51,344 nt of DNA from a virus. The DNA is taken from positions 1 through 51,344 of the IMG/VR virus record IMGVR_UViG_3300047471_000717. One strand, given 5' to 3'. The position numbers were made by a program, and so were the translations under genes. The notes beneath the pieces were generated by a model. It saw only the letters and a list, made by a program, of their open reading frames with translations, had not been told where the DNA came from and made no database searches. This document shows, in pieces, positions 2,500 to 48,906 of this stretch (its first letter is position 1; each line of letters opens with the position of its first letter).

Positions 2500-3350
2500 A
2501 GGATCACAGTTCAAATGTTACAACGAAGATGCTCTTGCTTGGTGATTCTGGCGTGGGCAAGTCCGGCGCATTGGCCTCATTGGTCGAGGCCGGATACAAT
2601 CTTAGGATCTTGGACTTCGACAATGGACTGGATATCCTAGCCAACGTGCTCAAGGCCAAAAACAAACCCGAGTTGTTGGAAAAAGTTAACTTCCAAACCT
2701 GCACAGATGGATCGCGGATCTCAGGCATCAATATTGTCCCAACCGCCACTGCCTGGACAAGAGCCATTAAAATATTGGGAGATTGGCCCGATGGAATTGG
2801 AAAAATCGAAACCTGGACCACCCAGGACATCCTGGTCATCGACTCTCTTACTTTTGCTGGAAAGGCTGCTCTTCGATTTATTCTTAACCTCAATGGTCGT
2901 GTCGGGGATATTCCTGGTTGGAGCGATTATTTTGCGGCCCAGCAATTATTAGAGAAGCTCTGCGCATCCCTCTATTCAGATATGGTGAAAGCCAATGTCA
3001 TCTGCATATCCCATGTTCGAGAAGTCGCCAAGACGCACCAGGAGGTTGATTCGAAAGGGCGGCCCATCACGGTCGAAGAGGAGGGCTCTCGTAAGGGATT
3101 CGCCGAAACAGGAGCGGGCAAAGCTCTGTCGCCAGTTATTGGCCGATATTTCAACTCAGTTCTCCTCGTTGACATTGAGGGATCAGGCGCAGGTACTAGA
3201 CGCATTATACGCACTGTCCCGCATGAGAACATAGGTCTCAAGAATAGTTCGCCAGCAATGGTGAAGCCCAAGTACGGAATCGAAACCGGACTAGCAGAGT
3301 ATTTCACCAGTGTGAGAGGCTCTTCGAATGTCAACCCCACTCCGAATTGA
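2487..3350 (+). CDS. Sak4-like / AAA_24 RecA-fold ATPase
   Basis: A 287-residue protein with Walker A GDSGVGKS at about residues 19-26 and Walker B ILVIDS at about 115-120. The segment RILDFDNGLDIL after the P-loop is typical of phage nucleotide-binding proteins of the Sak4/AAA_24 group. These RecA-like cores anneal or pair single-stranded DNA in phage recombination. Its place between a Cas4-like nuclease and an SSB-like protein supports that role. It overlaps both neighbours, 13 bases upstream and 23 bases downstream. Confidence 0.82.
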   Translation: MPSLKDHSSNVTTKMLLLGDSGVGKSGALASLVEAGYNLRILDFDNGLDILANVLKAKNKPELLEKVNFQTCTDGSRISGINIVPTATAWTRAIKILGDWPDGIGKIETWTTQDILVIDSLTFAGKAALRFILNLNGRVGDIPGWSDYFAAQQLLEKLCASLYSDMVKANVICISHVREVAKTHQEVDSKGRPITVEEEGSRKGFAETGAGKALSPVIGRYFNSVLLVDIEGSGAGTRRIIRTVPHENIGLKNSSPAMVKPKYGIETGLAEYFTSVRGSSNVNPTPN

Positions 3351-3966
3351 AACCGAACAATCCATTCTCCAACTCACCGCACTCGGTTTGAGTGCCAAAC
3401 TCATCCACAAACAGATAGGAGTAAACCCGCACACAGTATCATATACGCTTCGCAAATATCACACAACCAAGAGACAACTCAGACTCAATCTAATACAGCA
3501 AACATCACAGGAGTTAGCAATGGCACAAGTGGACTTTTCAAATCTGTTGTCGCAGCCTATGGATCAGATCAAGCGGCCACCGGTTAAGCCAGCAGGCACG
3601 TATCATGCAACGATTGCAGAGCATAAGTTCGGCAGATCGGCAAAGAAAGGAACTCCGTTCGTTGAATTTCAGTTCACAGGGGTTCAGCCAGGAGATGATA
3701 TTGATCCCGAACAACTGAAGGACACCGATGGAACCCCCATTGATTTGTCCAAATGGAAACCCAATACCCAGTTCTATCTGACCCAGGACTCGATCTTTCG
3801 CCTCAAGGAGTTCATTGAGGTGCTGCAGATTCCGACGAAGGGGCGGTCGATGAATGAGGCCATCCCAGAGACTCGCGGTCTGCCAGTGCTCTTAACTGTC
3901 TCAATGAAAGCCTCTGAGGATGGCAGTCAGTTTTTCAATCGCGTGGAGCACGTGACAGCGGGTTGA
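3328..3966 (+). CDS. HTH plus SSB-like protein with two possible starts (3328 and 3520)
   Basis: One open frame encodes 212 residues from 3328. Residues about 8-45 look like a helix-turn-helix (ALGLSAKLIHKQIGVNPHTV). From Met65 the sequence MAQVDFSNLLSQPMDQIKRP resembles the N-terminus of phage SSB-like proteins such as the DUF669 group, and would make a 148-residue protein on its own. Both starts have good ribosome sites: GAGAGG eight bases before 3328 and AGGAG six bases before 3520. The shorter product is probably the main single-strand binding protein. The longer product may be a genuine DNA-binding fusion, or the result of a lost stop codon between two genes. Confidence 0.72.
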   Translation: MSTPLRIETEQSILQLTALGLSAKLIHKQIGVNPHTVSYTLRKYHTTKRQLRLNLIQQTSQELAMAQVDFSNLLSQPMDQIKRPPVKPAGTYHATIAEHKFGRSAKKGTPFVEFQFTGVQPGDDIDPEQLKDTDGTPIDLSKWKPNTQFYLTQDSIFRLKEFIEVLQIPTKGRSMNEAIPETRGLPVLLTVSMKASEDGSQFFNRVEHVTAG

Positions 3967-6155: not shown

Positions 6156-7699
6156 GCAGGATCCAAACCTCAACCCTCTCACCGAATCTGGATGCCCATA
6201 CGCAGCATCAGGTTTACAATGGGCTCGATTGTTGTCTCACGTTTGAGATATTTGAAACACTCGAAAGGCAATTGCGGCAGAAGATTGATCCCTCGAACGC
6301 GCTCATTTATCAGTTCGAGCGGGGAATGCAAGCGCCGGCCCTCGAACTGATGGAGCGTGGGTGGCTCATTGATCCAGTTGAGCGGGCCAACGGAAAGGCC
6401 CTGCTCTCAAAGCGCAAAGCCACCCTCATTGCCATCCTCAATGCATTCGGTCAGGCCTTCTGGGACCGAGACCTGAACGCGAACAGCCCCAAACAAATGA
6501 AAGAATTCTTCTACGATCGAATGAGATTGCCAGTCCAATACAAGAGCGACAAGGGCGTCCGCACTGTCTCTACCAATCGCGAAGCCCTCGAAAAGCTGTA
6601 TGACTACTTCTATGCCCGCCCAATCATCAATACAATCCTGGCCATTCGGGAGACCTCGAAGAAGTTGTCTGTTTTTGAAACGGAGATCAGCCATGATGGA
6701 CGAATGCGAACGAGTTACAATATTGCAGGTACGGAAACGGGCCGATGGAGTAGTAGTTCTAGTGCAGACGGATCGGGGACAAACCTACAGAACATCACCC
6801 ATGAGCTACGAAGGATGTTCGTATCTGACAGGGGATTTAAGCTCTGCTATCTCGATCTTGAACAAGCAGAATCTAGAGTTGTGGGGTTACTCATCTGGAG
6901 AACCTGTTCCGATGCGACTTATCTCGACGCTTGTGAAACGGGAGATCTCCACACAACCACAGCCAGGCTTGTCTGGCCAGGACTTGGCTGGACCGGCGAA
7001 CCCAAAGCCGATCGAGCCCTTGCTGATGCGACCTTCTACCGTGGCTTTTCTTATCGCGATATGTCTAAGCGTGGCGGGCACGGCACTAATTATTTCGGTA
7101 CTCCACGAACTATGGCCCGGCATCTGAAGGTCGAGGAGCGGGTCATGGCTCAGTTCCAGGCCAGTTATTGTGGGGCGATCGGCGCTCCTGGAGGTGCCTT
7201 TCCAGGCATCAGACATTGGCAAGATTGGGTCAGGCGGGAGTTACTCCTCAATCAATCACTGACCACCCTGCTTGGCCGCAAGCGCATCTTTTATGGCAGG
7301 CCCGGCGACGATGCCACCCTTCGCGAAGCCATCGCCTACGAGCCCCAATCAGTTGTTGGAGATATTCTGAACTGCGCCCTCTGGCGCGTCTGGAAACATG
7401 AGCGTAGGGTACAGATCCTGGGTCAAGTGCATGACGCGATCGTGTTCCAGTACCCAGACAATCCATCAACTGAAGCTGACATCCTCAATAATGTGCTTGC
7501 CCTTACCCGCATACCCATAACCTCCAACAACCGCACCATAACCATCCCTTCCGAATGCAAGATTGGCTACAACTGGGCGAACGCAGACCCAGCGCGCAAG
7601 CTCTATGCCGATGGTAACCCAATGGGGCTGGTGAAGTGGGGAGGGCAGGTTGATGGCCGTTATCGAGAAGATCATCCCGAAGCTACAGCTGGCTCATAA
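6152..7699 (+). CDS. Family A DNA polymerase, C-terminal half (Exo III plus polymerase domain)
   Basis: I chose the ATG at 6152 because GGAG lies eight bases upstream and it overlaps the methylase stop as ATGA; an ATG at 6146 would leave only two bases. This gives 515 residues. Tyr22 and Asp26 in VYNGLDCCLT form the Exo III motif missing from the 4498 gene. Polymerase motif A is CYLDLEQAESR (Asp235), motif B is DMSKRGGHGTNYF, and motif C is VHDAI (His427, Asp428). The thumb and palm look complete. Proofreading needs residues from both polypeptides, so a complex with the 4498 product is expected. Confidence 0.9.
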   Translation: MSRIQTSTLSPNLDAHTQHQVYNGLDCCLTFEIFETLERQLRQKIDPSNALIYQFERGMQAPALELMERGWLIDPVERANGKALLSKRKATLIAILNAFGQAFWDRDLNANSPKQMKEFFYDRMRLPVQYKSDKGVRTVSTNREALEKLYDYFYARPIINTILAIRETSKKLSVFETEISHDGRMRTSYNIAGTETGRWSSSSSADGSGTNLQNITHELRRMFVSDRGFKLCYLDLEQAESRVVGLLIWRTCSDATYLDACETGDLHTTTARLVWPGLGWTGEPKADRALADATFYRGFSYRDMSKRGGHGTNYFGTPRTMARHLKVEERVMAQFQASYCGAIGAPGGAFPGIRHWQDWVRRELLLNQSLTTLLGRKRIFYGRPGDDATLREAIAYEPQSVVGDILNCALWRVWKHERRVQILGQVHDAIVFQYPDNPSTEADILNNVLALTRIPITSNNRTITIPSECKIGYNWANADPARKLYADGNPMGLVKWGGQVDGRYREDHPEATAGS

Positions 7700-8882
7700 G
7701 GATTGGATCGATGACTTTCTCGATTACACATCTGGAATCCCCAGTCCCGAAATCTTCCGCCTCTGGAGCGCCATAACATGCGTTGCGGGCGCACTCGAAC
7801 GACGTGTCTATATCGTGAGTGCTGGGACTCCGGTCTATCCAACCCTATACACACTATTGGTGGGCAAACCCGGCACCGGCAAGAGTCAGGCGATCCGCCA
7901 TGTCAACTCGCTCTGGTACGCGACCAAGGATCTCCATGTAGCCAGCCACTCCGTAACCAAAGCTAGTCTGGCCGATGAACTCAACGCGGCCAAGAGATGT
8001 ATTGTTCCTCCAAATGGAACGCTCATTGAATACCATTCACTTCAAATTGCCGCATCTGAGTTTGGAGTTCTCGTTCCCGCACACGACCTGGAGTTCCTCA
8101 ATTTCCTCAACGCGATCTACGATAACGATAGCAACTACCGCGAATCCCGACGAACTGGAAATCGAAAGATTGATGCTATTAATCCTCAAATTAATATCCT
8201 CGCAGGAACCCAGCCAGCTTACCTAGCATCACTCCTACCTGAAGAGGCCTGGGGAATGGGATTCATGACACGTATGATCATGGTTTATTCTGGGGAAAAA
8301 TTTAACATCAGACTCTTCGATAAGGTAACAGCTTCGCCCGATCAATTCGAGGTTCTTTTGGATGGTCTCAAACAACTACTCATCGCGTTTGGCAAAGCTG
8401 ATTGGCAACCTGATGCAGCGCACTCGATCCAGGCTTGGCACGATAGCGGCGAACCCCCACAGCCAGAGCATTCGAGGCTCGAATCTTATAACAGCCGCCG
8501 GATTCTTCACCTTATGCGTCTCTGTATTGTTTCTGCTGCTAGTGGCGGGCATCCTCTTTACATCACGTTGGTAGATTTTCATCGCGCGCTCAATTGGCTC
8601 GTGCAGGCAGAGCAGACAATGCCAGATATATTCAAAGAGATGGTCCAACGCTCAGATTCGCAGATCATCCAAGAATTGCATATGTTTGTTTGGAATCTAT
8701 GGATCAAGAGCAACAAGAATAATATTCATTCGGCTAGGCTCTGGAACTTCCTCCAGACCAAAGTCCCCAGTGATAAAATCCAACGCGTTCTAGAGACCGC
8801 GATCAGGTCCAATATCCTGGACCATGATCCAAGTTCAGATACATATAGACCAAGACCCCGAAACGAGCACGGGCTCGAATAG
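7653..8882 (+). CDS. DUF3987-like primase/helicase ATPase
   Basis: A 409-residue protein. I chose the ATG at 7653, which is preceded by GGAGG, over the in-frame TTG at 7650. The N-terminus DWIDDFLDYTSGIPSPEIFRLW followed by Walker A GKPGTGKS (residues 71-78) is typical of phage DUF3987-type ATPases, used as replicative helicases or the helicase part of primases. AASEFGVLV may be the Walker B-like segment. The only other P-loops here are the Sak4-like and terminase ones, and there is no DnaB or DnaG, so this is the best replicative-helicase candidate. Its TAG stop ends one base before the convergent late gene. Confidence 0.75.
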   Translation: MAVIEKIIPKLQLAHKDWIDDFLDYTSGIPSPEIFRLWSAITCVAGALERRVYIVSAGTPVYPTLYTLLVGKPGTGKSQAIRHVNSLWYATKDLHVASHSVTKASLADELNAAKRCIVPPNGTLIEYHSLQIAASEFGVLVPAHDLEFLNFLNAIYDNDSNYRESRRTGNRKIDAINPQINILAGTQPAYLASLLPEEAWGMGFMTRMIMVYSGEKFNIRLFDKVTASPDQFEVLLDGLKQLLIAFGKADWQPDAAHSIQAWHDSGEPPQPEHSRLESYNSRRILHLMRLCIVSAASGGHPLYITLVDFHRALNWLVQAEQTMPDIFKEMVQRSDSQIIQELHMFVWNLWIKSNKNNIHSARLWNFLQTKVPSDKIQRVLETAIRSNILDHDPSSDTYRPRPRNEHGLE

Positions 8883-9053
8883 CTATTGATGAATAATGAA
8901 CCCGAAATCGTGCCAGCCCAACAGGAACAGCAGGATGAAGATCAGGAACTCGTTCATATAAATAAACGGGCCCGTGACCATACCCCATCTCACACCCATC
9001 CATGAGAGGATGCAGAGTAGCATGATCAACCAAAAAATAAATCCTATCGACAT
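8883..9053 (-). CDS. Small two-helix membrane protein at the end of the lysis cluster
   Basis: A 56-residue protein reading MSIGFIFWLIMLLCILSWMG, then a short turn, then a second hydrophobic stretch (FLIFILLFLLGW). It has an AGGGAG ribosome site (9061-9066) seven bases before the ATG at 9053, overlapping the preceding gene's stop. Two membrane helices with a short loop fit a holin, antiholin or other lysis accessory protein. Its stop codon abuts the stop of the opposite-strand ATPase gene (8882/8883) without any gap. Confidence 0.72.
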   Translation of the reverse strand: MSIGFIFWLIMLLCILSWMGVRWGMVTGPFIYMNEFLIFILLFLLGWHDFGFIIHQ

Positions 9054-9064
9054 GACTGTTCTCC

Positions 9065-9439
9065 CTAGTTTGGTCTGGTTGCGTTTGGTGGCGGTTGTAT
9101 CAACGAGCGGTTCATCAATAGATCGATCTGGGCCTGCATAGCAGTCAGCCGACTGACCATCAGTTGGTAGGTTTTTTCATCGTTCTTATCATGCAAATCG
9201 AATTGACCCTTGGTTACCAATTGTGAATCCTGTTCGCGATTCTCCCGTTCGATCCTGGCAATGTCAGCAGTAAAACGTCGAACGAATTCATCATGCTCGC
9301 GCAGGGATAGGTAGTTGGCTTTGATATCCTTTAGTTCTGCCCTGGGATCCGCCAGTTGCCAAAATCCGCCAATGATCGCGATCAGTAGAATCCCAGTTGG
9401 AACATAGCTGCTCCAACCAGGAGCACCTGATGTAGCCAT
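9065..9439 (-). CDS. Membrane-anchored coiled-coil protein, possible inner spanin
   Basis: A 124-residue protein. One membrane helix at about residues 14-29 (VPTGILLIAIIGGFWQL) is followed by a long charged helical region (RRFTADIARIERENREQDSQLV). That layout, next to an endolysin and a holin-like gene, resembles an Rz-type inner-membrane spanin. I see no nested lipoprotein (Rz1-like) frame, so the spanin call is tentative; a generic lysis-cassette membrane protein is the alternative. Six bases separate it from the holin-like gene. Confidence 0.6.
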   Translation of the reverse strand: MATSGAPGWSSYVPTGILLIAIIGGFWQLADPRAELKDIKANYLSLREHDEFVRRFTADIARIERENREQDSQLVTKGQFDLHDKNDEKTYQLMVSRLTAMQAQIDLLMNRSLIQPPPNATRPN

Positions 9440-9445
9440 GACACA

Positions 9446-9823
9446 TCACACCGGCTTTGCCATGGCAGAGGCCGCGGTCGTGCCAGCAGGGACAATGGTT
9501 TGTGCAGGGATGGCCATAGCCAAGGCCTGGCCCGCAGGGGTTGGTTCAACGATGATACCTTTGACTGGTGATGCTGGATTAGCCGCAATGTCCGCGACAA
9601 CCGCAACCGCATTCTTCTCCGAGTGCGTGATAAAGCCCCACCCAGCTACAATCCCAGATGCAGCTAGGCCAATGAATGTCTCACTGGTAATGACACTCAT
9701 TACTTGATCTGATGTGAACCAGCCCTTTCCAACGAAGAAGCCAGCAATGACACCGCCGAATGTTGAGACCAATGAACGAACGAGGCTTTTGATTTGTTCG
9801 GTGTTGATGCTTGATGTGTTCAT
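9446..9823 (-). CDS. Holin-like protein
   Basis: A 125-residue protein. Hydrophobic segments lie at about residues 18-37 (LVSTFGGVIAGFFVGKGWF) and 49-67 (TFIGLAASGIVAGWGFITH), followed by an Ala- and Pro-rich soluble tail of about 55 residues. This resembles the Pam3-gp28-type holins of alphaproteobacterial phages. It overlaps the endolysin stop as ATGA, which couples expression with the lysozyme. The long Ala-rich tail is somewhat unusual for a holin. Confidence 0.65.
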   Translation of the reverse strand: MNTSSINTEQIKSLVRSLVSTFGGVIAGFFVGKGWFTSDQVMSVITSETFIGLAASGIVAGWGFITHSEKNAVAVVADIAANPASPVKGIIVEPTPAGQALAMAIPAQTIVPAGTTAASAMAKPV

Positions 9824-43335: not shown

Positions 43336-44837
43336 TACACTGTCTCCAGTGCTTTGTCGAATGGATTGTATTCGGATTCGAAGCGGGGCTCTTGGATGCC
43401 TTCGCGGCCAGCCAGAGAATGGGGAATTACAGGGTAGGCGAATGTCAACATAAATGCATCAGCAATATCTGGGCTCGATAAACCCCTTTTCTTCATATCC
43501 TCTTTACGTTCTAACTGAATCTCGTTCCGGCCATTGAAGCCGTACTCGGGCCCGATCAATTCTTGTTTGAATTGCTGGTCGTTGGGAATGCAGCCTCCTG
43601 CCTTGAGCCATTCTTTGCCTGCGCCCCACATTTCGGCCCGCTTGTTGGCATAGATGGTGCCATCGCCTTCGGTTCGGAGTTGGTCTGATTTGCCGCCAAA
43701 CTGAATATCCCAGACCGGGCACTGCAGTTGTCTCAATCTGTCTACAACGCCGCCACCAACACCACCGCCGTCCACAAAGACCGCATCGGCTCTGTATTGC
43801 AAATACGCCTGACTGACTTTGCCCGCCAATGTCATTGTATCGACGCCCCGCAACACGATAGGAGAAATCGATCGGCCATCTCGACCTTTTCGGAAGTAGA
43901 TAACAGATGCGTCGTCACCAAACCGAGCGACATCAACCCCAATGATGAAGGGGTCATGAAGGTGTACATATAGTTCCCGTTGTGCAGCTTCGTCGACGAT
44001 GTTGGAGGGGATGAATTGGAGCGAACCTGCGCGAGGGAATACGCCTCGAACGCGAATTCGGACAAAATCGGAATCTTCTCCATAGTCTTTGATCCATCTG
44101 TCGATTTGGCCCTTGTTGGTGATTGAGACATCTCTGGAATCTACCTGGATGGATTGCCAGCGGTGGGCGAACTTCCCCCCAGGAAAACATTCCTTGAATC
44201 GTCCGGTATTTCGAGTTGGATTTCCACAGATGAGCCAAATAATCTGAGTATCCGAATCAGTAAGCGCACCTTCAGTTGTTTCGAAGATGATGTCTGGAAT
44301 CGCTGAGCCTTCGTCAAATACGACAATAATTCTCTTTCCTTTATTGTGCATTCCAGCGAAAGCTTCAGTGTTGCGTTCGGACCAGGGGACAATGTCAATT
44401 CGCCAGGTATCAGCATGGGCGGGATCTCGGGAACAGAGTTTGGTCGCAGTGACTTCGAATAGGGATTTGGCAATGAAAAGTCTGTGCCATTTATTCAACT
44501 CAACCCATGTTTTAGTTTTGAGCTGATTTTCGGTGTTTGCGGTTACAACCCCACGCGCGTCCTCGTAGGTTGAGATTCCCCAGAGGAGAATCCAGGCGAC
44601 AAATGCAGATTTGCCAATCCCGTGACCGGAAGCTACGGCAATTTGGATAGCCTGGGTTGGGCTCAGAAGCCCGTCCCGGATCTTTTTGAGTAATGATTCT
44701 TGCCATGGTTCGGGTCCCAGTTTGGTTTCAAGCTCAGTTGTGGGTTCGCCCCAGGGGAATGCCCAGAGCACAAATTTGTAGGGGTCCGCACTGAGCCGTG
44801 CGAGGTCCTCTATCAATGAGGCCTGTTCATCACTCAC
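43335..44837 (-). CDS. Terminase large subunit
   Basis: A 500-residue packaging motor. Walker A is VASGHGIGKS at residues 68-77, and Walker B is IIVVFDEGS with Asp175 and Glu176. CGNPTRNTGRF fits the coupling motif. The RNase-H-like nuclease domain shows GVDVARFGDDASV (Asp302, Asp308-309) and VFVDGGGVGGG (Asp356). These are complete, so ATPase and nuclease should both be active. It lies 40 bases downstream of the small subunit. Confidence 0.93.
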   Translation of the reverse strand: MSDEQASLIEDLARLSADPYKFVLWAFPWGEPTTELETKLGPEPWQESLLKKIRDGLLSPTQAIQIAVASGHGIGKSAFVAWILLWGISTYEDARGVVTANTENQLKTKTWVELNKWHRLFIAKSLFEVTATKLCSRDPAHADTWRIDIVPWSERNTEAFAGMHNKGKRIIVVFDEGSAIPDIIFETTEGALTDSDTQIIWLICGNPTRNTGRFKECFPGGKFAHRWQSIQVDSRDVSITNKGQIDRWIKDYGEDSDFVRIRVRGVFPRAGSLQFIPSNIVDEAAQRELYVHLHDPFIIGVDVARFGDDASVIYFRKGRDGRSISPIVLRGVDTMTLAGKVSQAYLQYRADAVFVDGGGVGGGVVDRLRQLQCPVWDIQFGGKSDQLRTEGDGTIYANKRAEMWGAGKEWLKAGGCIPNDQQFKQELIGPEYGFNGRNEIQLERKEDMKKRGLSSPDIADAFMLTFAYPVIPHSLAGREGIQEPRFESEYNPFDKALETV

Positions 44838-46252: not shown

Positions 46253-46423
46253 TGGTTACACAAAATTGAGGTTGGGTGTGGGCGCCATCGACGGCCACCC
46301 CATTGGGGGGCCTACCCCCAGGTCGACCATTGTCAAATGGATGGTTCGCGTTCATGCGATGGTATCCTGGTGCGCGGCGCCGCATGGGTGTGAGGTCTGC
46401 GATCATTATCCGTATGAAATAAT
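46253..46423. other. Gene-poor divergent region rich in short palindromes
   Basis: No convincing gene is seen. Palindromic items include TGGGGG/CCCCCA (46304-46320), GGTCGACC (46321-46328), CATGCG/CGCATG (46353-46386) and GCGGCGCCGC (46374-46383). It sits between the leftward and rightward promoters, so it may hold operators or an origin. Confidence 0.45.
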
Positions 46424-46447
46424 AATCACGGAAATGTGATTGGACAT
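46424..46447. promoter_or_regulatory. Operator-like repeat, copy 1 of 2
   Basis: AATCAC (46424-46429), six bases, then GTGATT (46436-46441), followed by GGACAT. The same layout with GATCAC occurs at 48455-48478. Over the 23 bases from ATCAC to GGACAT the two copies differ only in the two bases after ATCAC. The arms are complementary, so a dimeric regulator site is likely. It overlaps the -35 of the promoter at 46441. Confidence 0.6.
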
Positions 46448-46469
46448 ATGTAGGGGGCAGGTGTATGTT
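46441..46469 (+). promoter_or_regulatory. Predicted rightward promoter
   Basis: TGGACA (46441-46446), 17 bases, then TATGTT (46464-46469). The -35 overlaps the operator-like repeat. The predicted start, about 46476, lies just before the ribosome site of the small gene at 46498. Confidence 0.5.
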
Positions 46470-46608: not shown

Positions 46609-46630
46609 TCAGCTTTTGGTCGAACAATTT

Positions 46631-46668
46631 GACCCAGCACATGCAAAAGTGTTGGGTCATTTTCGTTT
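46631..46668 (+). terminator. Rho-independent terminator
   Basis: GACCCAGCAC (46631-46640) pairs with GTGTTGGGTC (46649-46658) through ten pairs including one G-U, with an eight-base loop. ATTTTCGTTT follows. It lies 22 bases after the tiny gene at 46498-46608 and should end that transcript. Confidence 0.75.
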
Positions 46669-46692: not shown

Positions 46693-46812
46693 GTTGAATC
46701 CTCTTCAGTAAAATCCGCCTCTCTTAAGAGTTTTTTTTTTTTTTTTTTTTTTTTCAGTAGAAATAGTGGAGGCTGCAACCTGGAGTTAGTGAACGCGTAA
46801 AGAGGATTCAAC
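46693..46812. repeat. 13-base inverted repeat around a palindrome and a run of 24 T
   Basis: GTTGAATCCTCTT (46693-46705) and AAGAGGATTCAAC (46800-46812) are perfect inverted copies 94 bases apart. Inside lie CTCTTAAGAG (46721-46730), itself a palindrome, and 24 consecutive T (46731-46754). No gene is seen in 46609-46924 on either strand. No target duplication flanks the repeat. A further small hairpin (TGTTGC/GCAACA, 46836-46855) lies before the next gene. Confidence 0.7.
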
Positions 46813-46924: not shown

Positions 46925-47530
46925 ATGGGCGCGCGCAATCCTAACAATAATCCAACGGATCGAATCCTGCGATTGCTTGAAGAAATGGATGAACTCTCGG
47001 CTGCATACAATAGCCTATACAAACGCGCCGTTGAATCGAATATCTCATTTACAGGAGTAATGCCTAGACCGAATCTCTTGGAGTTTCATCTAGAGATGCA
47101 ACGCCAGGGCAACACATATCTTCGCACGCGCCCCAATGTCATCGCAGCGCGCGAGCGTATGCGGCATATGCGATTTAGAGATGCAATGTTTGATGAACAG
47201 GGCGAACCTAGGGTTCGTGAACGGCACCGTCAACCAATCCCACGTAAGCGCGACAATCCAGTAATGGTTGATAGTCCTGATTCGAAATATAATATGCCAT
47301 ATCATATTGATGAAGAGCTGGCAAAACAGCTCGAAGAGGATAACAAAATGATCGCGGAACAGAATCTCGCGAGGCAGAATAACATTGATAGCATTCGCGC
47401 GGGCAAAGGGCCGAATCCAGTTCATACGAATCCGGTTATAATGCCTGAGCATATCGTTGCGGGGAACAATTATGTAGCGCCGAAAGATTTATTTTCAAAA
47501 AACAAACCAGATGCACCACAGGAGGATTGA
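46925..47530 (+). CDS. Early protein, paralogue of the 48160 product at its N-terminus
   Basis: A 201-residue protein starting MGARNPNNNPTDRILRLLEE. AGGAGG lies seven bases before the ATG at 46925, which sets the start; an upstream in-frame ATG at 46835 lacks a site. The N-terminal pattern NNPT-x-RI-x-RL-x-x-EM-x-EL also starts the protein at 48160. The middle is Arg-rich (RERHRQPIPRKRD) and the C-terminus is Asn- and Pro-rich. No known family is recognised. Confidence 0.72.
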   Translation: MGARNPNNNPTDRILRLLEEMDELSAAYNSLYKRAVESNISFTGVMPRPNLLEFHLEMQRQGNTYLRTRPNVIAARERMRHMRFRDAMFDEQGEPRVRERHRQPIPRKRDNPVMVDSPDSKYNMPYHIDEELAKQLEEDNKMIAEQNLARQNNIDSIRAGKGPNPVHTNPVIMPEHIVAGNNYVAPKDLFSKNKPDAPQED

Positions 47531-47588
47531 CAGCCCCATTTTATTAGTGTACCAACATAATGCACGGCCAAACCAAATGGAGACTAAC

Positions 47589-47947: not shown

Positions 47948-47975
47948 GAAGCACACATTTCAAAGTGTGTGCTTC
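47948..47975 (+). terminator. Strong hairpin after the acidic-protein gene
   Basis: GAAGCACACA (47948-47957) pairs perfectly with TGTGTGCTTC (47966-47975), loop of eight bases, 17 bases after the stop codon. No T run follows (TGTGTCAATT), so it may be a weak terminator or a processing site. Confidence 0.5.
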
Positions 47976-48020: not shown

Positions 48021-48182
48021 ATGGATAGGGAAAAGGCAATCCAGAGGCTTCACGAAGCATGGGCAATTCAATGCCTCTTGTGTCCGGATATGGAACGGGC
48101 AATGCCATTAGAATTGTATGTGCAACAGAATTTGGAAAAACTCATGAAAGGGAATGAAAATGCCAAGGGCAGTCGAGAATAA
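48021..48182 (+). CDS. Small helical early protein
   Basis: Encodes 53 residues from the ATG at 48021 (MDREKAIQRLHEAWAIQCLL). An in-frame start at 47967 would add a Cys-rich prefix (CFCVNCQ) but lies inside the upstream hairpin. No strong ribosome site is seen for either. The sequence is helical with two Cys (CLLCPD). The next gene starts inside its 3' end. Confidence 0.5.
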   Translation: MDREKAIQRLHEAWAIQCLLCPDMERAMPLELYVQQNLEKLMKGNENAKGSRE

Positions 48183-48456
48183 TCCAACAGAGCGCATTCA
48201 GAGGCTCATGATTGAGATGGGCGAGCTGGTGGCAATTGTGCAAACCCAAGCGCCAGCACTATTGCCAAGGCTTCCCAATTATGAGTCCGAGCGGGTCCGG
48301 CAAACCCTCACCTATCGGAGGAATGTGAACCGAACTCGGCCAGCTGGCACGGCCACAGACCAAATCATGCGAGAGTGCCTGGAACAAATCGGGGCCAGTT
48401 ATGGGCCAGCCCCAGGCTCGAATCTGTTTGAAAAAATCAAGCCCCCCAACGGCTGA
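48160..48456 (+). CDS. Small early protein related to the 46925 product
   Basis: About 98 residues from the ATG at 48160 (an ATG at 48154 is also in frame). The start MPRAVENNPTERIQRLMIEM matches the N-terminal pattern of the 46925 protein. Then follow PRLPNYESERVRQTLTYRRNVNRTRP and a C-terminus ending KPPNG. The basic middle could bind nucleic acid. The family is unknown. It precedes the palindrome-rich gap at 48457. Confidence 0.68.
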   Translation: MPRAVENNPTERIQRLMIEMGELVAIVQTQAPALLPRLPNYESERVRQTLTYRRNVNRTRPAGTATDQIMRECLEQIGASYGPAPGSNLFEKIKPPNG

Positions 48457-48563
48457 TCACACAAATGTGATTGGACATTGGGGTAATATTACCCCAATCT
48501 TGGACCCTATCCAAAACCTGGCGAACGCAGTTCGCACTCGTGTCAGGCGATCTCGATGATCGC
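48455..48563 (+). other. Palindrome cluster: operator copy 2 and four further hairpins
   Basis: This gap holds, in order: GATCAC-N6-GTGATT (48455-48472, operator copy 2, followed by GGACAT), a 22-base perfect palindrome centred on TAATATTA (48477-48498), TTGGA/TCCAA (48500-48514), GCGAAC-GCA-GTTCGC (48521-48535) and GCGATC-TCGAT-GATCGC (48547-48563). Apart from the first bases, which overlap the preceding stop, no gene is present. The -35-like TGGACA (48472-48477) has no good -10 at 17 bases. Confidence 0.7.
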
Positions 48564-48583: not shown

Positions 48584-48796
48584 GTGACTAGAACAATCAA
48601 TGATCTTCAATGGGATATCGAGTCCCCATCATTCTATAAGCTGGCCAATTGTGATATCCGATTGGTATTTGATGGCGCTCGATGGTGGCTTTACTCGCGC
48701 AAGCGAACGGGCGGGTCAATGCATTTCGAATCAAGGGCCAAGGCCATTGAATGGCTGGGCCAGGAAATCCAAACCAAAGCATCAATCGGGTCCTGA
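48584..48796 (+). CDS. Small early protein
   Basis: A 70-residue protein from a GTG at 48584, with GGAG seven bases upstream. The sequence TRTINDLQWDIESPSFYKLA, then RLVFDGARWWLYSRKRTGGSMHFESRAKAIEWLGQEI, looks like a small beta-beta-alpha domain with a C-terminal helix. It lies between the palindrome cluster and another structured element. The function is unknown. Confidence 0.7.
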   Translation: MTRTINDLQWDIESPSFYKLANCDIRLVFDGARWWLYSRKRTGGSMHFESRAKAIEWLGQEIQTKASIGS

Positions 48797-48811: not shown

Positions 48812-48875
48812 CCCCGTGCGAGCAATGGCCACAGGCGCAACTAGATCGATGCCTAATGGCCAGGATCGCACGGGG
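48812..48875 (+). other. Long structured element of 64 bases
   Basis: CCCCGTGCGA (48812-48821) pairs with TCGCACGGGG (48866-48875). Inside, two TGGCCA sites can pair with each other and AGGC (48833-48836) pairs with GCCT (48851-48854), about 20 pairs in all. It fills the gap between 48796 and the HIRAN gene. ATTTCTCATT follows, only weakly U-rich. It may be a terminator or a small structured RNA. Confidence 0.6.
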
Positions 48876-48906
48876 CATTTCTCATTAGTAAATGGAGGAT
48901 GCGAAC

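Follow-up and report, generated by a model that had tools for sequence, protein, structure and literature searches.

A conserved dyad beside a -35-like hexamer in a palindrome-rich gap of a phage genome: a likely early-gene promoter/operator region

Why does a phage genome carry five palindromes, almost without spacing, in a single short gap? Such an island lies at 48455-48563 of the window, i.e. the whole stretch of 51,344 nucleotides analysed here (IMG/VR record IMGVR_UViG_3300047471_000717). A previous reading made from the letters alone (the sequence-only reading) described there an operator-like repeat, a 22-base perfect palindrome and three more hairpins. It held that this density was not explained by a promoter or a terminator, and suggested a replication origin, a packaging site or a structured regulatory RNA. 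All five palindromes are present; together they occupy a gap that separates two small early genes and is non-coding except for the upstream TGA. The features are listed below, together with their state in the relative described further on.

48160-48456, plus strand: upstream small early gene, 98 amino acids from the given ATG, 92% amino acid identity in the relative
48456-48471, plus strand: H1, ATCACAcaaaTGTGAT, 6 bp with a loop of 4, containing the dyad ATCAC-N6-GTGAT, a recurring operator-like element
48472-48477, plus strand: -35-like hexamer TGGACA, 5/6 to TTGACA, abutting H1
48477-48498, plus strand: H2, ATTGGGGTAATATTACCCCAAT, the 22-nt perfect palindrome with arms of 11 bp, in promoter-spacer position, a candidate second operator
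48500-48514, plus strand: H3, TTGGAccctaTCCAA, 5 bp (TTGGA/TCCAA), not conserved
48521-48535, plus strand: H4, GCGAACgcaGTTCGC, 6 bp (GCGAAC/GTTCGC), 5 bp in the relative
48547-48563, plus strand: H5, GCGATCtcgatGATCGC, 6 bp (GCGATC/GATCGC), in this genome only
48584-48796, plus strand: downstream small early gene with a GTG start, 70 amino acids, 97% amino acid identity in the relative, preceded by the ribosome-binding site GGAG

The TGA stop codon of the upstream gene (48454-48456) overlaps H1, and a sixth palindrome (CAGAA...TTCTG) follows H5, around the ribosome-binding site. No other stretch of the window contains at least four non-overlapping hairpins of at least 6 bp in 110 nt. This four-hairpin density was matched in 3 of 150 dinucleotide-shuffled genomes, and a stem of at least 11 bp was present in 10 of 150. 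The folding z-scores of the island against shuffles were -2.9 as RNA and -4.8 as DNA. The density of palindromes is modestly beyond chance and, taken alone, not spectacular; conservation is the stronger evidence.

The late genes (terminase, head-tail adaptor, major head protein) occupy the minus strand between 9 and 46 kb, and the named matches of the terminase include epsilon15-type terminases. The early and replication genes are on the plus strand, where they start at 46.5 kb, reach the end of the window and continue over 1-8.9 kb; among them are a PD-(D/E)XK nuclease, an AAA ATPase, UDG plus exonuclease, PolA and a primase/helicase. As the two ends of the window are contiguous in the related contig G006, the window is a circularly permuted, near-complete genome. 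By PolA, the closest isolated phage is Caulobacter phage Kuura (OQ067476; 41% identity), which suggests an alphaproteobacterial host. Late and early genes also lie on opposite strands in Kuura; its relatedness to the window is by PolA, none being demonstrated for the terminase or other structural genes.

We compared the island with related contigs. Apart from a near-identical copy of the window, it is carried by only two of them, G006 and G007, and searches with the small flanking proteins matched only these same two. Since G006 and G007 are identical over the aligned island, they were counted as one relative (about 88% identity). In this relative, 10 of 100 columns of the island differ (8 substitutions and 2 gaps), vs. 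43 of 129 neighbouring four-fold degenerate sites (P = 3e-5). For H1 and H2 together, only 2 of 46 positions differ, vs. 33% of four-fold sites (P = 5e-5). The stem of H1 is unchanged, with a change in the loop only, H2 keeps its arms minus one near-central pair (T to C), and H4 is kept except for its broken innermost pair. The pairing of H3 is destroyed, and H5 is absent, an extra gene following GGCGATC in the relative (gene-loss junction). Covariation in relatives had been proposed as a check of the stems: against this relative, H1, H2 and H4 show no compensatory change, and both arm changes break pairs. Judged from this alignment, only H1 and H2 are well conserved, and the conserved unit is H1 and H2 (with H4) and not five hairpins; the expected conservation of the stems fails for H3 and H5.

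Then, is the dyad of H1 found elsewhere? The genome has exactly two copies of H1 with its flank (ATCACNNAAATGTGAT-TGGACA), one in the island and one at 46425. Likewise, AAATGTGATTGGACAT is present in two copies in the window and two in the relative, on the early-gene strand and upstream of early genes. Including the left arm, both window copies (46425 and 48456) read ATCAC(G/A)(G/C)AAATGTGAT-TGGACA. The features around the second copy, and the hairpin that follows the island's downstream gene, are the following.

46425-46440, plus strand: second H1 dyad, repeating the 16-nt core and flank exactly, ahead of the first early gene
46441-46469, plus strand: promoter-like TGGACA-N17-TATGTT adjoining this second dyad, with the first early ATG (46500) about 30 nt further on, conserved in the relative
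46630-46663, plus strand: intrinsic-terminator-like hairpin after the first early gene, the paired stem being also found in the relative
48812-48882, plus strand: large terminator-like hairpin after the downstream gene, CCCCGTGCGA...TCGCACGGGG and then T-rich, conserved

The dyads and the terminator-like hairpins outline two small units, each with a control site, gene(s) and a terminator. Between landmarks, the relative differs in gene content, in a pattern as in cassette exchange. The hairpin at 48812-48882 is terminator-like, or a small structured RNA: in the relative its outer stem is identical and is followed by GCATTTTTT (T-rich tail), the inner loop GCAACTAGATCGATGCC is conserved, and the inner stem is changed with pairing partly kept.

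Several other features of the early region were observed. Different early genes are preceded by repeated leaders such as ATGCACGGYCAAACCAAATGGAG (47556-47588 and L038), which may serve cassette exchange between relatives. A perfect 10-bp hairpin (GAAGCACACA-N8-TGTGTGCTTC) lies in an early intergenic gap at 47948-47975, a stretch that is replaced in the relative. In the divergent late/early region, the hairpin GGCCACCCCATTGGGGGGCC (46290-46330) belongs to a well-conserved part, and in the divergent/early leader region CTCTTAAGAG is followed by more than 20 T (46715-46756), the relative also having a long T run. The early genes at 46925-47530 and 48160-48456 have in common the N-terminal stretch NNPTxRIxRLxxEM, and a gene in G009 (L041, about 1932-2273) has a similar beginning. 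Finally, the first 60 residues of the early protein encoded at 3328-3966 are helix-turn-helix-like (sub-threshold LuxR/HTH_23 matches), which makes it no more than a candidate DNA-binding protein.

To other phages, the search was extended with 2.9 million viral contigs, scanned by DNA pattern alone and with no protein information. Besides the relatives and a contig with 99.9% identity to the window, the scans matched G019 to G024 and G018, whose four copies all lie on the early-gene strand. In an all-against-all protein comparison, G020, G022 and G023 share the nuclease, AAA ATPase, UDG/exonuclease and PolA of the window, and the primase/helicase is also common to the window, G020 and G023. 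The dyad is linked to a shared replication module. The window terminase matches none of these three contigs, in a search set without positive control and with contigs that may be fragments. The same comparison found no regulator gene common to the dyad-bearing phages, and the motif is absent from the PolA relatives G009 and G010. A position matrix of the dyad gave 25 hits in 1.32 Mb and 0 in shuffled sequence, and all hits scoring at least 20 are among the sites described here. Where the placement is clear, the dyad occupies a short gap with its hexamer side facing the next gene, whose start codon comes some 35-80 nt after the dyad (about 110 nt in the island and the relative). The hits in G019 and G021 are not clearly placed before a gene, and L073 has two strong dyads without a nearby -35. 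H1 with a strict TTGACA had no match in genome_contigs, so bacterial chromosomes do not commonly carry the site in this form. Against isolated phages, blastn with the region or with the motif as query gave nothing useful. The "operator-like repeat" of the sequence-only reading is thus right for H1, a recurring dyad that adjoins a -35-like hexamer and stands before early genes, as the operator of a regulon would at candidate promoters.

Two further observations concern the surroundings of the dyads. GTTTAAAC, often as GTTTAAACGC, recurs near dyads in L164 (G018; 6345-9790) and L161 (G022), and is possibly a second signal. In the window, CCCCAA (48444-48449), TTGGGG (48478-48483) and CCCCAA (48492-48497) would allow an alternative pairing, a possible attenuator; an enclosing stem is also found at two G018 copies, and not generally among copies.

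We also examined the promoter features beside the dyad. At all listed sites except L087, Kuura and two L073 sites, the abutting hexamer matches TTGACA at 4 to 6 of 6 positions, a likeness that is partly built into the search patterns. The match is 6/6 in G020, G022 and G023, which were found with a pattern fixing part of the hexamer. G018 was first found via its 9781 copy, and its other three copies score 4/6, 5/6 and 5/6. At the non-abutting sites, the best TTGACA-like hexamer lies downstream by 10 nt (TTGACA, G018_6365), 21 nt (TTGACA, L087) or 9 nt (TTGACT, Kuura). These offsets of about one or two helical turns would fit a protein on one face of the helix, an argument from three cases of which one (Kuura) has an imperfect dyad. 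With the hexamer downstream, the dyad would be upstream of the transcript start. The G018_11688 copy has a T5 centre where others have A-runs, i.e. the same dyad on the other strand and a different RNA loop. The candidate -10 is TATGTT, at N17, for the 46425 copy and TATATT in G024, although -10 matches across sites are not demonstrated to be above chance level. Near the 46425 copy, the only plus-strand promoter-like match lies after the dyad. In the island, CAATCT is found at N17, the best match is 3/6 at N18 and none is convincing. Here the promoter reading is at its weakest: a promoter in the island may have low activity and depend on an activator, or there may be operators only and no working promoter.

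H2 starts at the last base of the hexamer and extends over the spacer position and the greater part of the -10. An H2-like dyad in the same place is smaller in G023 (P = 0.02) and weaker in G024 (P = 0.10), and there is none at the other sites. H2 is probably a second operator, e.g. a phage-specific repressor site. Its 16-nt core was found in five viral contigs without similarity to the region, about chance level, and H2 with one free position had no match in genome_contigs. Two other roles were considered for this palindrome. Within H2, the nonanucleotide TAATATTAC is similar to the geminivirus rolling-circle origin; the likeness is one of letters only, with no other support, and such an origin was set aside. 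An intrinsic terminator is not supported, as H2 does not have a G+C-rich stem followed by a T run (CTTGGACCC comes next).

From these results, the island is likely to be the early-gene promoter/operator region of a phage with an epsilon15-type terminase. H1 would be the DNA operator of a dimeric regulator, which at the adjoining -35-like hexamer would be in contact with RNA polymerase or overlap it. With the same site before the first early gene, one regulator would control both units, whether by activation or by repression. H2, in spacer position, would add the second operator, while H4 and H5 would lie in the untranslated leader and may be functionless. The statement that neither promoter nor terminator explains the palindromes is doubtful for the promoter, since H1, TGGACA and H2 are laid out like a promoter with operators; no terminator was called at 48455-48563. 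The arrangement resembles a Sigma-70 phage early promoter with a flanking dyad operator (class II-like activator or repressor site) by its dyad with an A/T-rich centre beside a TTGACA-like hexamer, its intergenic place before early genes and its several copies per genome. It differs by the island having no -10 of quality, by the unusual 22-nt perfect palindrome in the spacer, and by a binding protein that is only postulated. The early region of Kuura has one dyad-like site, the highest-scoring one in that genome, which lies in an early gap and has its TTGACT downstream; unlike in the island, one arm is imperfect (GTGAA) and there is no H2-like palindrome. Ahead of an early gene of Kuura, the gap at 43568-43813 (L165) contains TTGACAACGCGAGAAAACGCGT, a different A-rich-centred dyad right after TTGACA.

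The main rival is a cis-acting RNA of two tandem stem-loops, similar to HK022 put or a lambda nut site, through which the early transcript would modify RNA polymerase and allow it to read through the terminators downstream of each copy. The two put RNAs of HK022 are each about 70 nt long and contain two stem-loops (PMC9378689). As with these RNAs, the window has two copies in early operons. In both the 46425 copy and the island, a second stem, of different sequence in each copy, folds immediately after H1, with terminator-like hairpins downstream. In addition, three of the four H1 copies in the window and the relative have a GAAA loop closed by G-U or A-U. However, the second stem is not general among copies, no significant downstream fold being found in G020, G022, G021 and G018_6365, and the loop becomes U5 in G018_11688. 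With a near-consensus -35 directly downstream of the dyad, H1 would moreover lie before the start of the transcript. Covariation of the stem sequence is never observed, a weak point as the search patterns demanded the stem. We consider this explanation unlikely. Less likely still is its more specific form, a put-like, factor-independent two-stem-loop antitermination RNA (first stem conserved, second variable) that would serve read-through between shuffled early-gene cassettes in phages of alphaproteobacteria.

It is also improbable that the tandem hairpins act as a leader or processing RNA, in which they would serve as RNase III sites or stabilisers or would control translation between the two genes. 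Their intergenic position, the strong tandem folding and the presence of hairpins in further gaps of this operon (47948-47975, 48812-48875) agree with such a role, which leaves the recurrence of H1 with a -35-like flank unexplained. The loss of H3 and H5 and the pair-breaking changes without compensation in the other stems also argue against it. Rfam 15 gave no match above gathering score in the window. The suggested structured regulatory RNA is disfavoured.

A replication origin, single-strand initiation site or packaging site is very improbable. The hairpin cluster, the phage-encoded polymerase and primase/helicase, and the association of the dyad with the replication module in several contigs would agree with an origin. 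However, there is no iteron array, the GC-skew has no turning point at 48.5 kb, and the dyad copies are single and scattered before genes, with four in G018. Packaging is unsupported, the terminase genes being on the other strand, 3-5 kb away. Overall, the sequence-only interpretation is thus partly supported, for its operator and not for its origin or packaging site. Finally, a chance cluster of one conserved operator and unrelated small palindromes is likewise very improbable: shuffled genomes do reach the same density (3/150) and H3 and H5 are not conserved, but H1, H2 and H4 are conserved above neutral expectation and H1 recurs in other phages.

Most probably, the island is an element of an ordinary kind, an early promoter/operator region; its motif did not appear in a text search of the literature. 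This case also shows a way to tell which part of a striking palindrome cluster is conserved and which is accidental. If our explanation is right, the dyad would provide a compact control signal that can be searched for in a group of phages having their replication module, but not their terminase, in common, and a handle on the regulator of their early genes.
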